DNA from: Acidobacteriota bacterium
Lineage (GTDB): Bacteria; Acidobacteriota; Vicinamibacteria; Vicinamibacterales; SCN-69-37
NCBI GenBank assembly: GCA_024640135.1
Contig: JAHEFO010000014.1
Coordinates: forward strand, 1 to 33,448
Length of the DNA stretch: 33,448 nucleotides
Reading direction: 5' to 3'
Below are positions 3,876 through 19,126 of the stretch, one piece after another. The notes beneath the pieces were generated by a model. It saw only the letters and a program-made list of their open reading frames with translations. It did not search any database and was not told the origin of the DNA. How positions within the stretch are numbered: the stretch's first letter is position 1; each line of letters starts with the position of its first letter. A program made the translations under genes and the position numbers.

Positions 3876-4403
3876 TCAGCGCGAGAACAGGACAAACCAG
3901 ACGGAGGCGCGAACGCCGGTCACGGTCCGCGCCTCGGACCGTTCGACCGGCACATCCAACTGGAACCGCAGCGCCTGACTTCCGGACACCCTGACGTCAA
4001 GCCCGAGGCCCGTCAACACAGCCCAATCCGGCGACCGCTGGCGGATCACCGTGCCGGCCAGGCCCTGCCCGAAGAGGGTCACGCGATCGCCGCCGGCCAG
4101 CGTCGCGCGCACGCCTGCCAGTGCCCGCCAGTCGTTGTGTCCTTCACGACGCGTGCCGCCTCCTTCGAAAACACCGCTGAGCGGTCCGAATCGACGAGCC
4201 ACCGTCACGCCTCCGCCAAAGTGCGACTCCGATGAGTGCTCACGGCGAATCAAATGGGGACCGAGGGCCAGCTCCCAACCGCGCTCCGCGGCCGCGCCCG
4301 GCGGCGCGACGGCGCCGGCGGAAGACTGCGCCTGGGCGCGCGCCGGAATCAGCGAGCAGAAGATAACCAGGAACAACACCGGGACGATACGCATTCGACG
4401 CAC
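3876..4403 (-). CDS. Small exported outer-membrane-type protein
   Basis: This protein is 175 residues from GTG4403 (172 from ATG4394). A signal peptide spans about residues 5-25 with a cleavage site near ARAQAQ. The mature part alternates hydrophobic and polar residues (ELALGPHLI, HFGGGVTVARRFG, VTGVRASVWFVLF) and ends close to an aromatic residue, as short outer-membrane beta-barrels do. I do not recognise a family. It is the first gene of the minus-strand unit with the glycosidase-like lipoprotein, 12 bp away. There is no Shine-Dalgarno; the -10-like TAGCGT at 4415-4410 lies six bases before GTG4403. It may help the downstream lipoprotein at the outer membrane, but that is guesswork from adjacency. 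Confidence 0.6.
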   Translation of the reverse strand: MRRMRIVPVLFLVIFCSLIPARAQAQSSAGAVAPPGAAAERGWELALGPHLIRREHSSESHFGGGVTVARRFGPLSGVFEGGGTRREGHNDWRALAGVRATLAGGDRVTLFGQGLAGTVIRQRSPDWAVLTGLGLDVRVSGSQALRFQLDVPVERSEARTVTGVRASVWFVLFSR

Positions 4404-4428
4404 GCTATCACGCTATAATCCGCGGCGT
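4404..4428. promoter_or_regulatory. Compact bidirectional promoter with overlapping -10 boxes
   Basis: Only 25 bp separate GTG4403 (minus) and ATG4429 (plus). Plus strand: perfect TATAAT at 4414-4419, predicted start near 4426, a leader of about 3 nt. Minus strand: TAGCGT at 4415-4410, predicted start exactly at 4403. The two hexamers overlap on bases 4414-4415. Neither gene has a Shine-Dalgarno. The -35 contacts for each would lie in the other gene's coding sequence and are not obvious. Confidence 0.5.
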
Positions 4429-5790
4429 ATGTCCCTTGGACGAATAGCGGTCGCGTCCCTGGGCTCCACGCTTCTGGCGCTCATGCTTGCCTGGGGTTGC
4501 GCCTCTCACGCCCCTGTCGATCCTCAGGTTTCTGCCGATCGACTTCATGCACTGGCCGGTGCCGCGCCTCGCGTAGACGGTACTCTCTCTTCAGAAATTC
4601 CTTCCGAGGTTCGGCTGGACGACGGGTTGACGGATGACGAGGCCGTCGCGCTGGCCTTGTGGAACAACGCCGCCTTCCAGGTCAGCGTCAGCGAACTCGG
4701 CTTCGCGCGCGCCGACCTGGTCGAAGCCGGGTTGTTGACCAATCCGGTGCTGTCGCTGCTGTTTCCGATCGGACCGAAACAGCTCGAAGCCGCGCTGCGG
4801 TGGCCTGTCGAAGTGTTATGGCAGCGGCCGCGCCGAGTCGCGGCGGCTGAGTTGGCAGGGGAGGCAGCGGCCGAACGACTGGTCCTGGCTGGACTGGACC
4901 TCGTCCTCGCCGTCAGGGTGGCGTACGCCGACTTCAGCCTCGCCACGGACCGACAGCGGCTCGCCGAAGAGGCGGCGTCGACGCTGGCGCGCATCAACAC
5001 GCTGACCCAGTCACGACTGGCTGTCGGCGATATCAGCGAACTGGACGCACGGGTCGCGGAAGTGGACTCGGCACGAGGCGCCCAGGACGCCCAGCGTGCT
5101 GGGCACGACGTGACGATCGCCCGCGAACGGCTGCGGCTGCTCCTGGGCCTCCCAGCCGACGCCGTCTTCCCGGCATTGGCCATGCCTGCGACGCCGCCGG
5201 TTGACTGTGGGCCGGCAGAGGCTCTGCTGCGGGAGGCACTGGTCGCGAGGCCTGATGTGCGCGCGGCCGAGATCACCGTCGAGGCCGCCGCGGCAAGACT
5301 CGGATGGGAGAAGTCACGGGTTGTCACCCTGACCGCCGTGCTCGACGCGAATGGCGAAGGCCGAAACGGTTTTGAGGCAGGACCGGGAATTGAACTCGGC
5401 CTGCCGGTGTTCAACAGGAACCAGGGAGGCCGGACGCGCGGTGAGGCCGAACTGCAGCGGGCGGCGGCCTCGTATGTCGCCATTCAGCAACGCGTCGCCC
5501 TGGAACTTCGCGAAGCGTCGACGCAGCTTGAGCAGGCCCGCCAGTCACTCACCGCCTGGCGCCAGGCCATCATGACGCCGCTGCTGGCCAATCTGGCGAG
5601 CGCACAGGCCTCATTCGACGCAGGCGACACATCATCTCTGTTCGTACTCGAGCACAGCCGGCGCCTTGCCGACGCCAGGGTGCGTGAACGCGAACTCGAC
5701 GCCGACCAGCAACGCGCACGAGCGCGCATCGAGCGAGCTGTAGGTCGATCGTGCCGCGTGGCATCCCAGGAGACATCGCGTGAGCATTGA
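4429..5790 (+). CDS. TolC-family outer membrane efflux factor (CusC/NodT-like)
   Basis: This 453-residue protein has an N-terminal lipoprotein-type signal (hydrophobic 8-23, WGC with Cys24). The rest shows the duplicated outer-membrane-factor pattern: long helices rich in Ala/Glu/Arg (GEAAAERLVLAGLDLVLAVRVAYADF; RVALELREASTQLEQARQSL), a repeated VEAGLLTNPVL-type turn early on and a PGIELGLPVFNRNQG segment in the second half, typical of the CusC/CzcC subfamily. It should trimerise as the outer membrane channel of the tripartite pump encoded by the next two genes; its end overlaps the adaptor gene by 11 bp. The frame is open back to 4051, but that part lies over the opposite gene and lacks a signal peptide, so ATG4429 is preferred. 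A promoter lies immediately upstream. Confidence 0.88.
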   Translation: MSLGRIAVASLGSTLLALMLAWGCASHAPVDPQVSADRLHALAGAAPRVDGTLSSEIPSEVRLDDGLTDDEAVALALWNNAAFQVSVSELGFARADLVEAGLLTNPVLSLLFPIGPKQLEAALRWPVEVLWQRPRRVAAAELAGEAAAERLVLAGLDLVLAVRVAYADFSLATDRQRLAEEAASTLARINTLTQSRLAVGDISELDARVAEVDSARGAQDAQRAGHDVTIARERLRLLLGLPADAVFPALAMPATPPVDCGPAEALLREALVARPDVRAAEITVEAAAARLGWEKSRVVTLTAVLDANGEGRNGFEAGPGIELGLPVFNRNQGGRTRGEAELQRAAASYVAIQQRVALELREASTQLEQARQSLTAWRQAIMTPLLANLASAQASFDAGDTSSLFVLEHSRRLADARVRERELDADQQRARARIERAVGRSCRVASQETSREH

Positions 5791-14396: not shown

Positions 14397-14614
14397 TTCA
14401 CCATGTAGAGCGTGAAGACTCATGAAGGCAGGGCTGGGTGCCGCCTTCGGCGGCAGGCACGATTGGAGGGACGTCGGAGACGAACAGACCGAGCGCAGTT
14501 CAGCGGTGCGTTCGTCGCCGACATCCCTCCGATCGCGCAGCCCGGCAGCGCCGGGCTCGGCAACCCTGCGTTCTGTCAGACGGCTCCATGGAGCCCCAGG
14601 CGCTTCATGGTGAA
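14397..14614. repeat. Hairpin-rich repeat-like element with terminal inverted repeats
   Basis: This non-coding stretch of about 218 bp lies between convergent genes. Its ends are inverted copies of TTCACCATG (14397-14405 and, reversed, 14606-14614). Inside are nested dyads: TCTTCAC/GTGAAGA around 14395-14420; GCCGCC-TTC-GGCGGC near 14441-14455; a 21-bp arm at 14465-14485 matching 14510-14530 in reverse at 19 of 21 positions; GCCCGGC-AGC-GCCGGGC near 14539-14555; and a perfect 14-bp palindrome at 14582-14595. This looks like a REP/MITE-type dispersed element or structured RNA, and it may also stop transcription from both sides. No target-site duplication is clear. Confidence 0.5.
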
Positions 14615-14630
14615 TAGGCAACCGCGCGCG

Positions 14631-15203
14631 CTACACAGACGTGAAATCCACGCGAACGAGCTTCTCCCTGATGAACCGAGGGACCTCCGGGAACGTGCGG
14701 GAGTCCACGAAATGTCCGCGGTCCGTGAACTCGAAGTAGCTGCATCGAAGCTGCGCGGCAACGAATCTCGGCTCTGCAATCGGAATATGCGGGTCATCCG
14801 TGGAGTTGTAGATGGCGATCCACTGCTGGTGCGCGCGGATATCCTCCCACCGCCATGGGTCGGCGTAGTAGCCGCTGGCCGCTTCCCCGCTGTCACCAAG
14901 GTCGGTGTGGCAAACACCGACGAGAATTGATCCCAGCAACCGGTGCCTCTCTGCGTAGCGCATGGCCGCAACGGCGCCGGACGAGTGGCCTATCAGAATC
15001 GTGTTCTCGTCGGCACCGAGGGACTCGAGAAACGGCAGCCAGAATCGTGCGCGGGCCCTGACGTTGTCGGGAAAGGTCTGGTTGATCACGTCAAGCCCAA
15101 GGGTCGTGAGTTCGCGCTCCAACCAGGGCAGCCAGATGTCATCGGCGGTGCCGCCGCCGTTGCCGTGGATGAGGATGGCCTTTGGCATGCGGGGTGGCGT
15201 CAT
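14631..15203 (-). CDS. RBBP9/YdeN-type serine hydrolase
   Basis: This 190-residue single-domain alpha/beta hydrolase begins with the strand and oxyanion segment AILIHGNGGG (9-18). The nucleophile elbow is GHSSG with Ser74, the acid is in NSTDDP (Asp136 or 137), and the histidine is in TDRGHF (His164). Size, order and the late PEVPRFI segment fit the RBBP9/YdeN family (DUF1234-like), whose bacterial substrates are mostly unknown. No signal peptide is present, so it should be cytoplasmic. ATG15203 overlaps the methyltransferase stop in an ATGA junction. The frame continues upstream to 15770, but that part only shadows the methyltransferase gene. Confidence 0.85.
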   Translation of the reverse strand: MTPPRMPKAILIHGNGGGTADDIWLPWLERELTTLGLDVINQTFPDNVRARARFWLPFLESLGADENTILIGHSSGAVAAMRYAERHRLLGSILVGVCHTDLGDSGEAASGYYADPWRWEDIRAHQQWIAIYNSTDDPHIPIAEPRFVAAQLRCSYFEFTDRGHFVDSRTFPEVPRFIREKLVRVDFTSV

Positions 15204-15904
15204 GACACCGGCGCGCCGATCAACAACCGGTTCTTCGGAGTGATGGAGGCCGGAATGGTCTGCGTCCAGACGCGATAGCCGTGACGTTCGAGGCGAATGG
15301 CGCGCATCACATCGACCGACGTCCCCAGATCGAGCCAGCCACCAAATGGCCCCGCGTCGCACGTGTCCTTGTCGTGACAACACGGCAATACGGCGACCCT
15401 GGCGCGGGCGTCGACGGCGCGCTCGAGAATCTGATCGGTCAGCGCCCCGCATCCATGACTCGACACCACCACATCGTCCGCCTCGAGATCGACCGAGTCG
15501 ATTGCGGCGGTGACGAACGTGATGCGGTTGGACAATCGGGGCCACACGTCGACCAGCGCCTCGTGGACACGGGCTGCGGAGGGTGGCGGCGAGGTGTCGA
15601 CCACCAGCGCCGACGGTGACGAGTTGTCGAGGAGCAGCATCACCTGTGCCAGCAGGCCGTGACCACCCCCGAGGTCGACGATGCGCCCGCCGCGGAAGAG
15701 CCGTCGCGTTCGTCGCGCCAGTTCCCAGGATTCGTAGAGTTCTTTCCGGGGCAAACAACCGGCCTGGCACACCGCGCGACCCAGCCGGTCCAGAAGCGTG
15801 CTGCCGGGGAAGCGGGCAAGATCGTAGGGCGTGAGCCGGCCGCGGGAGGAAGGCGAAAAACCCGGGGTCTGGCCCGGCTGATTGTCACGTAGTCGCGTCG
15901 GCAC
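15200..15904 (-). CDS. SAM-dependent methyltransferase-like protein with PCCH motif
   Basis: This 234-residue Rossmann-type protein has motif I IVDLGGGHG (75-83), an acidic strand end VVDTS (101-105), VVVSSHGCGALTDQ (145-158) and AVLPCCHD (171-178). A glycine motif with a HACG-like segment and a PCC-H strand recalls the Methyltransf_32 family, which includes the GSTCD and TRMT13-like tRNA methyltransferases; for this bacterial member the substrate is unknown. It starts at GTG15904 with no Shine-Dalgarno but with TACGCT at 15918-15913 upstream. It is divergent from the NicO-like permease and translationally coupled to the downstream hydrolase. Confidence 0.75.
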   Translation of the reverse strand: MPTRLRDNQPGQTPGFSPSSRGRLTPYDLARFPGSTLLDRLGRAVCQAGCLPRKELYESWELARRTRRLFRGGRIVDLGGGHGLLAQVMLLLDNSSPSALVVDTSPPPSAARVHEALVDVWPRLSNRITFVTAAIDSVDLEADDVVVSSHGCGALTDQILERAVDARARVAVLPCCHDKDTCDAGPFGGWLDLGTSVDVMRAIRLERHGYRVWTQTIPASITPKNRLLIGAPVS

Positions 15905-15930
15905 CCGTGTTCAGCGTATCTTGGAACGGC
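15905..15930. promoter_or_regulatory. Compact bidirectional promoter with overlapping -10 boxes
   Basis: Twenty-six bases separate GTG15904 (minus) and GTG15931 (plus). Plus strand: TATCTT at 15917-15922, predicted start near 15929. Minus strand: TACGCT at 15918-15913, predicted start near 15906. The hexamers share the TA at 15917-15918, which is symmetric on both strands. Neither gene has a Shine-Dalgarno, so both messages would have leaders of about two bases. Confidence 0.5.
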
Positions 15931-16584
15931 GTGGGCATCGAACTCATCGTCACCACCTGGTTGCTGGGCCTCGTCTCGGGCGTACGGCACGCCTTCGAAC
16001 CGGACCACGTGGCGGCGGTCTCCACTCTGGTGGCCGGCGGTCACGGAAGCCGGCGGGCGACGTGGCTGGGGGTCTGGTGGGGGCTGGGTCACACCGTCGC
16101 GCTTCTGGCCGGCGGCCTTGTGCTGGTGGTGCTGCGTGCCGAGTTGCCCTCGGCCGCCAGCGAAGTAGCTGAATTCGGCGTCGCGGTCATGCTCGTCGCC
16201 CTTGGCGTCCGGGCGATCCGGCACGCGTACAACCATGTGGCCGGCGCCCCTCATGTTCACGTCGCCAGCTCGGTGGACCTGAAGCGTTCGTTCGGTATCG
16301 GGATTATCCACGGGCTTGCCGGAAGCGGCGTGATCTCGGCGCTCGTGATGTCACAACTGTCGACCCTCCCCGCTCAGCTGGTCTATGTCGCGCTTTTCGG
16401 CCTGGGCTCAACCGCCGCGATGGCGGCCGTGTCGGGTGTCGCTGGCTGGCAACTGGCAAGGCTGGGCAACTGGCAGCGGACGCGAGTGCCGTTCCAGTGG
16501 GCCGCAGGCGTCCTGTCATTGGTGGTGGGTCTGGCGTGGGGCTACCCGTTCGCCAGCCGGATGCTGTGGCCGCTGGCCCAGTGA
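15931..16584 (+). CDS. NicO/UreH-like metal (nickel/cobalt) permease
   Basis: This integral membrane protein has 217 residues from GTG15931 and about six hydrophobic segments. Its first helix carries the NiCoT/NicO signature HX4DH (HAFEPDH, residues 20-26), and a second histidine-containing helix LGVWWGLGHTVALLAG follows. A loop with HVHV near 105 and the helix FGIGIIHGLAGSG complete the family pattern. It is shorter than classical NixA/HoxN (about 330 residues) and matches the NicO/UreH group. Transport of nickel or cobalt is inferred from family. An in-frame GTG at 15907 is possible, but it would leave only two bases to the opposite gene and put the -10 box inside the coding sequence. Confidence 0.8.
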   Translation: MGIELIVTTWLLGLVSGVRHAFEPDHVAAVSTLVAGGHGSRRATWLGVWWGLGHTVALLAGGLVLVVLRAELPSAASEVAEFGVAVMLVALGVRAIRHAYNHVAGAPHVHVASSVDLKRSFGIGIIHGLAGSGVISALVMSQLSTLPAQLVYVALFGLGSTAAMAAVSGVAGWQLARLGNWQRTRVPFQWAAGVLSLVVGLAWGYPFASRMLWPLAQ

Positions 16585-16693
16585 AGGCCGCAGGCGATCA
16601 GGTGCTCCGGCAGGTCGACCCGAGGCGCGCAGCCTCAAGCCGGGATCCAGGTCGACACAGAGCGGCGAAGTGCCTTGGCCGGGTCAGGCGCCG

Positions 16694-19126
16694 CTACGCG
16701 CCCCCGCCACGTCCGCCCCGGCCGCGGCCGCCGGCAGGTGTGGAGGGAATCGCATAGTCGTCCGGCGGCGTGCCGCCGAGCAGATGGCGCACGAAGAAGT
16801 CCCAGCGGCGGCGCATCATGTAGTTGCCGTCCTGGCCGTATCCGTGGCCCGCATTGGGGAAGATCAGCAGTTCGAAGTCTTTGTTCGCGCGGATGAGCGC
16901 TTCCACCACCAGCATGGTGTTGGACGCCGGGACATTGCTGTCCATGCCGCCGTGCGCGATCAGCAATTTGCCCTTGAGGTCCTTGGCAAATTCCTGGTTC
17001 GCCTCCACGGAGTAGCTGTCGTCCCGGCTGCCCGGGGGCCCGGTCAACTCGCCCTGATAGCGCTCGCCCCAGTCGTCCTCGTAGTTACGTTGGTCGTGAT
17101 TGCCGGACTCGGAGATGCCGACCTTCCAGAAATCCGGATACCTGAACATGGCTGATGTCGTGGCGAATCCCCCGCCGGAATGTCCCCAGATGCCTGTGCG
17201 TTCGAGGTCGATCCACGGGTATCGCGAGGCCAGTTCCTTCATCGCGGCGATCTGATCGGGGATCGTATTGTCGCGACCCATCGCACCGTAATACGCGTCG
17301 TGGAAGGACTTCGACCTGTTCGGCGTGCCCCGGCCGTCGATGGACACCACGATGAAGCCAAGCTCGGCGAGGGCCTGACGGTCACCGTGGGCCACGTTCC
17401 AGGAACGCGATCCGATGCTTCCCGACTGCGGGCCGGGGTAGATCTGGTTGATGATCGGATACTTGCGGCTGGCGTCGAAGTTGGTGGGCCGGAACAACAT
17501 GCCGTAGATGTCGGTCACACCGTCGGCGGCCTTGGTGTGGAACGGCATCGGCATCTTCCAGCCCGTGGCCATCAACTTCGAGGTGTCGGCCTTTTCGAGT
17601 TCCAGCACCTGCTTCCCCGTATTGCCGTCGCGCAAGGTTGTGATGGGCGCCAGGTCCCAGCGCGAGTACGTGTCGACAATCCAGCGGCCCGATGGCGACA
17701 ACTGCATGCTGTGATTGCCATCGTCTGGCGTCAGCGACACGTAGCCGGTGCCGTCGAGATTGATCTTGTAGTAGTGCGTCAGGTAGGGGTCCTGCCCCGC
17801 CTCGCGTCCCAGGCCCGACAGCCACATCGTGCGCGTCTTCTCGTCGAGGCGGGTCAGGCCGGTGATCGGCCCGTCGCCCTTCGTGATCTGATGCTTCAGC
17901 TGGCCGGTGGTCAGATCGTACAGATAGAGATGTCCCCAGTTGTCGCGCTGCGAATACCAGATCAGTTCGTTGGAATCCCACAACACGCGCCAGTTGACGC
18001 GGGATTCGTACTGCGTCTCTTCTGATTCGGTGAACAGCGTCCGGACCGCGCCCGTGCTGGCGTCGGCGATGCGGAATGTGGCGTCCTTGTGGTACCGGCT
18101 GGTGGAGACCAGCGCCAGTTTGGTGGCGTCCGCATTCCACTCGTAGTCGTTCACGCTGATGTCGTCGCCCAGCGTGGCACGGTGGAAATCAGGATCCATC
18201 TGCAGCCGCGTCATGCGCCCGGAGTCCACGTCGATGATGACGCGATGCACCATCGCCACGTCCTTGTCCCCGGGCAGCGGGTACTTCCATGCCGACAGCG
18301 TCGGATGACCCACGTTGGTGCTCACCATGTACATGTCGCCGACGTTGCGCTCGTCCTGCTGGTGCGTCGCGATCTTCCTGGAATCCGGCGACCAGAGCAC
18401 GATGGCCCCGGCGCTCTTCGTCCATCCTGCGTTGTCGGTGGCGTATCCGAAATTCTCGATGCCGTCTTTCGTGAGCTGGCGTTCGGTGCCGGTGGCCATG
18501 TCCCGGAGCCACAGGTTCCAGTCGCGAATGAAGACACCCTTCGTTCCGTCAGGCGCCATGCTGATGGGCGGTCCTCCGCCACCCACGCGTCCGCCACCTC
18601 GTCCTCCCCGGCCGCCGGCGCGACCGGCCCCGCCGCGGCCCGCGGTGGCGGGCGCACCTTCCTCCGGCGATACGGTTCCACAGGCGGCGCCGCGCACGTC
18701 GCACGACCATCGGTTGGCGCCCACTGACACGATCACGGCCGTGGCGGTCGGCGATAGAGTGAGCGGCGTCGTCGCGATGGTTTCTGCGGTGAAGCTCTCG
18801 CCCGACACCGCCGACAGGGCGGCCGCCACACGGGCGTGATCGAAGGCTGGCGCGCGCGTGCCCTGTGCGGGATCGACGAGCACGATCTCGGTTCCAGCGG
18901 GCCTCGTGCTCGAGTACCAGAATCGTTCGTCCGGCAACCATGTGGCATCGGCGGTGCCGCCGATCACCAGGCCAGTGAGCGCCCCGCCCAACTGCTTCGC
19001 GGCGTTGTCATAGTCTGCCGCCGTGAAGACACGACCCGGTGAGGACTGCGACTGGGAACCGAGCGGAACTGCCAGCGCCAGGAACAGCGGCAGCGCGAGA
19101 ACGAGACGTGAAACCCGGACCGTCAT
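16694..19126 (-). CDS. Secreted S9 (DPP IV-like) prolyl oligopeptidase-family peptidase
   Basis: This 810-residue protein has a Sec signal (about 6-25), an N-terminal DPPIV_N beta-propeller (about 60-540) and a C-terminal alpha/beta hydrolase domain. The triad is readable: Ser650 in GHSGGG, Asp729 in HGGMDSNVP and His761 in NAGHGYG. The spacings of 79 and 32 match human DPP IV (78 and 32). It should remove dipeptides or cleave small peptides in the periplasm or outside. Two low-complexity RGG tracts are odd: residues about 157-186 inside the propeller and the C-terminal tail GGRGRGGRGGG. Start ATG19126 is set by GAGGAGG ending five bases upstream; 14 in-frame codons before it lack a ribosome site. 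It is divergent from the 19258 gene. Confidence 0.88.
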   Translation of the reverse strand: MTVRVSRLVLALPLFLALAVPLGSQSQSSPGRVFTAADYDNAAKQLGGALTGLVIGGTADATWLPDERFWYSSTRPAGTEIVLVDPAQGTRAPAFDHARVAAALSAVSGESFTAETIATTPLTLSPTATAVIVSVGANRWSCDVRGAACGTVSPEEGAPATAGRGGAGRAGGRGGRGGGRVGGGGPPISMAPDGTKGVFIRDWNLWLRDMATGTERQLTKDGIENFGYATDNAGWTKSAGAIVLWSPDSRKIATHQQDERNVGDMYMVSTNVGHPTLSAWKYPLPGDKDVAMVHRVIIDVDSGRMTRLQMDPDFHRATLGDDISVNDYEWNADATKLALVSTSRYHKDATFRIADASTGAVRTLFTESEETQYESRVNWRVLWDSNELIWYSQRDNWGHLYLYDLTTGQLKHQITKGDGPITGLTRLDEKTRTMWLSGLGREAGQDPYLTHYYKINLDGTGYVSLTPDDGNHSMQLSPSGRWIVDTYSRWDLAPITTLRDGNTGKQVLELEKADTSKLMATGWKMPMPFHTKAADGVTDIYGMLFRPTNFDASRKYPIINQIYPGPQSGSIGSRSWNVAHGDRQALAELGFIVVSIDGRGTPNRSKSFHDAYYGAMGRDNTIPDQIAAMKELASRYPWIDLERTGIWGHSGGGFATTSAMFRYPDFWKVGISESGNHDQRNYEDDWGERYQGELTGPPGSRDDSYSVEANQEFAKDLKGKLLIAHGGMDSNVPASNTMLVVEALIRANKDFELLIFPNAGHGYGQDGNYMMRRRWDFFVRHLLGGTPPDDYAIPSTPAGGRGRGGRGGGA

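Follow-up and report, generated by a model that had tools for sequence, protein, structure and literature searches.

The window, the whole stretch of 33,448 nucleotides that was analysed, contains a divergent pair of genes with little DNA between them. On the minus strand a methyltransferase gene (15200-15904; Methyltransf_32, Pfam PF13679, 36.6 bits against a cut-off of 27, and relatives) begins at GTG15904, and on the plus strand a gene for a NicO/HupE-like permease (15931-16584) begins at GTG15931, a start supported by its homologs. Judged by its sequence, the permease is distantly related to NicO/HupE proteins and scores under the Pfam cut-off (PF03824, 23.5 bits; cut-off 27.7). The two start codons are separated by 26 bp (15905-15930), which read CCGTGTTCAGCGTATCTTGGAACGGC and are bordered on the left by CAC, which is GTG15904 read from the minus strand, and on the right by GTG15931. 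Downstream of the methyltransferase, a serine-hydrolase-like gene (PF06821, 14631-15188, minus strand) begins only 11 bp past the end of the methyltransferase gene, so that a predicted minus-strand promoter in the gap may drive both genes.

Within the gap, a pseudo-symmetric core of 10 bp, AGCGTATCTT (ANNNTANNNT; 15913-15922), carries a -10-like hexamer on either strand: TACGCT for the methyltransferase (15918-15913, minus strand) and TATCTT for the permease (15917-15922, plus strand), with the TA at 15917-15918 in common. The sequence-only reading had described exactly this arrangement, GTG starts 26 bp apart with two hexamers sharing one TA, and the sequence of the gap agrees. On both strands the spacer from hexamer to start codon is 8 nt, within the range of about 6-9 nt used here for leaderless starts and in front of a well-supported start on both sides, and no further TANNNT is present within 150 bp upstream of either GTG. 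The predicted transcription start sites, near 15906 on the minus strand and near 15929 on the plus strand, lie 23 bp apart and would leave leaders of about 2 nt; a TA common to both strands combined with this predicted distance corresponds to a configuration reported for bidirectional promoters. The absence of a ribosome-binding site, also claimed earlier, holds for both sides, as no Shine-Dalgarno core (GGAG, GAGG, AGGA or AAGG) occurs on either strand of 15905-15930 and the nearest approach to one is a plus-strand GGA at 15923. An Rfam RNA element was considered and rejected, the window having no match at the gathering threshold.

Both start codons were assessed by comparison with homologs. 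GTG15904 is the sole ATG, GTG or TTG between the conserved domain of the methyltransferase and the upstream in-frame stop, which lies three codons before it. In most methyltransferase homologs of the order the coding sequence begins about 8-14 codons downstream of this position. Where the genus members G006 and G001 have their GTG start, the window lacks a start codon, and beyond it, in the upstream direction, the alignment is poor; the first methyltransferase codons in this genome are therefore probably new. Among the 60 genomes searched, the methyltransferase has a match in 29 and the permease in 19, the own genome being counted both times. None of the 13 other genomes of the genus and family gave a permease match, and the closest relatives of the methyltransferase are in MAGs named Acidobacteria or Vicinamibacterales. 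At the 19 permease homolog loci, a start codon falls at query residue 8-10 in 14 and exactly at residue 9, equivalent to GTG15931, in 7. The two genes adjoin each other at none of 74 other loci examined, with flanks of at most 1.5-3 kb and some contigs represented twice.

The genus, a member of the Acidobacteria, has a clear leaderless signal. TANNNT at 6-9 nt before the start was found for 59 of 541 genes of the own genome (14 of 541 for the reversed motif ANNNTA), 39 of 215 in G005 (reversed, 7) and 12 of 85 in G003 (reversed, 3), and for 12 of 275 in the order-level relative G016 (reversed, 1); Shine-Dalgarno cores precede 130 of the 541 own genes. These 541 are the genes with a known upstream stop within a sample of 745,156 bases (of the first 559,455, 31,747 are N) from an assembly of 4,320,126 bases in 394 contigs. 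In this sample TA is strongly depleted (rate 0.0118, against 0.166 each for T and A, N included), and the density of TANNNT between genes is about three times its overall density. Among 110 leaderless-type sites of the genus, the spacer is 6 nt in 45, 7 nt in 22, 8 nt in 26 and 9 nt in 17, so that the 8-nt spacer at 15905-15930 is normal, and the start codon is ATG in 88, GTG in 21 and TTG in 1. TACGCT ranks third among the hexamers (7 of 110, the methyltransferase site counted), whereas TATCTT is weaker than the genus consensus and atypical, a T at position 5 occurring in 6 of 110. No -35 signal was detected at the 110 sites (TTG in 17, against 14 in the reversed control), and a -35 element is therefore not expected at 15905-15930. 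A consensus scan of 14500-17500 returned no sigma-70 promoter with a -35 element, and this type of promoter was ruled out.

Gene starts in these statistics were called with a simple, home-made hexamer finder, which misplaced both the permease start (at 15907) and the plus-strand start of the gene at 4429 (at 4627); the counts of gene pairs therefore took in every plausible start up to a difference of 6 score units and 90 nt. The genus sample yielded 148 divergent pairs, 52 of which allow a gap of 15-60 bp. Of the 148, 10 are compact pairs with TANNNT at 6-9 nt before each start, where the reversed motif gave 2; widening the spacer range to 5-10 nt raised the 10 to 12. In 300 dinucleotide shuffles the mean was 0.16 and the maximum 2, but the reversed motif is the fairer control because shuffling in effect lowers the TA content of the gaps. 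The order-level relative G016 gave no double-sided pair among 54. Compact leaderless pairs are thus real and recurrent in the genus.

The uniformity of these pairs is another matter. Their gaps range from 19 to 56 bp, and the predicted start-site distances are 18, 21, 21, 23, 23, 36, 37, 46, 53 and 57 bp, the first five belonging to the pairs with overlapping hexamers; one G005 pair has a 23-bp layout identical to that at 15905-15930. The suggestion of a recurring promoter type hence stands as far as compact double-sided pairs are concerned and falls as regards a single geometry. In the genus sample -10 DNA is shared in 5 of the 10 double-sided pairs, but the shared TA itself is not enriched. 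All that an overlap at the TA requires in addition is an A four positions upstream. Of the 110 leaderless-type sites 12 have this A regardless, and it is not enriched in divergent genes (6 of 61, against 6 of 48 co-directional leaderless-type genes). TA sharing by itself is weak evidence, and the exact overlap of hexamers may be a chance product once two starts are close.

The sequence-only reading had further attributed the same geometry, namely hexamers that overlap in a gap of about 25 bp, to positions 4404-4428. This identity was rejected on comparison with the ortholog pair of G006, in which the minus-strand gene is 61 percent identical over residues 34-172. G006 keeps an ATG matching ATG4394 as well as the proximal TAGCGT (4402-4407, minus strand, in the window), has TATGAT in place of the TATAAT of the window (4414-4419, plus strand) and lacks a start codon opposite GTG4403. 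As it supports ATG4394 and a separate minus-strand -10, the gap runs from 4395 to 4428, 34 bp between ATG4394 and ATG4429 (plus strand), with hexamers that do not overlap; they appear to do so because a second copy of TAGCGT is present at 4410-4415. G006 has about 29 extra bases between the two -10s, and the 4395-4428 pair is not in the set of ten double-sided compact pairs. The TolC-like gene of the window is intact at 4429-5790, and G006 has only a broken remnant beside its methyltransferase (locus L003, about 900-1200).

Taken together, the starts, the TANNNT sites and the genus-wide signal agree with the compact bidirectional promoter proposed earlier for 15905-15930, and we consider it probable, with some reserve, that the gap is a compact bidirectional promoter of sigma-70 type and of the leaderless kind. 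We infer that the pseudo-symmetric core would supply one -10 element per strand, with the -12/-11 TA step in common, and that RNA polymerase would bind it in one orientation or the other, never in both simultaneously. Rightward transcription would begin near 15929 and leftward transcription near 15906, and ribosomes would take up the two resulting mRNAs, each with a leader of about 2 nt, without a Shine-Dalgarno site.

The alternatives differ in how much of this they retain. It is rather unlikely that only the minus-strand promoter of the methyltransferase is real and that TATCTT overlaps it by chance, the permease being transcribed weakly, from within the methyltransferase gene or via another sigma factor. 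The commonness of TACGCT among the leaderless hexamers of the genus, the atypical TATCTT and the single A that suffices for an overlap (present in 12 of 110 sites) all fit such an account, but it leaves the plus strand with no other TANNNT within 150 bp upstream, and some distant permease homologs do have TANNNT, at 11-14 nt before their starts. Very unlikely, in our estimate, is that neither hexamer is a promoter and that the genes are read from elsewhere or not at all, the layout being a chance one in a genome rich in compact gaps: the 10 double-sided pairs, where the reversed motif gives 2, and the strong enrichment of TANNNT at 6-9 nt across the genus argue otherwise, even if those 2 pairs do occur and the window contains 12 copies of the core 10-mer.

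If the permease instead started at GTG15907, two bases away from GTG15904, the plus-strand promoter would lie elsewhere. This start gives a longer open frame and was picked by the simple gene finder, but none of the 19 homolog loci starts at the equivalent residue 1, against 14 at residues 8-10, and no TANNNT lies 4-14 nt before GTG15907, which makes it highly improbable. For gene-start calling in such genomes the leaderless signal should be heeded, as a choice based on length shifts the permease from GTG15931 to GTG15907.

Bidirectional promoters with shared -10 elements have been described in bacteria (Warman et al., 2021, as cited in PMC10268837 and PMC12825309). Their definition requires two mapped start sites, one per strand, at a distance of 7-25 bp (PMC10268837), and 18 bp is given as the commonest spacing, with 10 and 23 bp also common (PMC12825309). 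The bidirectional promoter predicted at 15905-15930 resembles them, as these sources present them, in its pseudo-symmetric -10 on both strands and its predicted distance of 23 bp; it differs in that both predicted products are leaderless mRNAs of protein genes. A bacteria-wide survey lists Acidobacteria among the groups with TA-led leaderless genes (PMC3160421), and in M. tuberculosis TANNNT without a -35 and leaderless mRNAs are established (PMC3898074). The TANNNT just before the start, without a Shine-Dalgarno site or -35, is common to those promoters and 15905-15930, whereas the former, as presented there, are single starts, shown or predicted, and the latter would have two on one core. 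According to a figure legend in PMC3898074, closely juxtaposed divergent promoters are common in M. tuberculosis, and prpD and the divergent Rv1129c are both leaderless. They thus form a divergent double-leaderless pair like the one predicted here, in a different phylum, the likeness lying in the closely placed divergent promoters and the two leaderless mRNAs. Because the 23-bp spacing, leaderless TANNNT without a -35 and juxtaposed divergent promoters have all been reported previously, the promoter kind predicted at 15905-15930 is, by analogy, one already known in bacteria, and its shared-TA layout is one reported spacing rather than a new type. In the literature searched, no paper combined Acidobacteria, promoters, transcription start sites and dRNA-seq, and none joined leaderless genes and bidirectional promoters with divergent transcription in bacteria; four papers mention both bidirectional promoters and leaderless genes.

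If the bidirectional reading is true, such gaps would be natural minimal promoters, two protein genes being served by one 10-bp core and neither having a leader, and polymerase competition and leaderless translation could be tested jointly in a lineage of Acidobacteria. Tentatively, we suggest as a possible though doubtful origin that a rearrangement deprived the methyltransferase of its original upstream region and start codon, and that the reverse activity inherent in the symmetric promoter of the permease captured the gene, which gained a new GTG about 8-14 codons upstream. In more general terms, leaderless translation might allow divergent genes of the genus to sit in gaps of 19-27 bp with one shared -10, hence with polymerase competition.

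A further compact divergent layout was noted at five loci from other families of the order (L079, L238, L242, L249 and L081), where 20-39 bp separate a permease homolog from a divergent CrcB-like ORF, called by script and by eye in the first four and by Pfam CRCB in L081. The partner of the permease is different in these pairs, and so is the -10 spacing.
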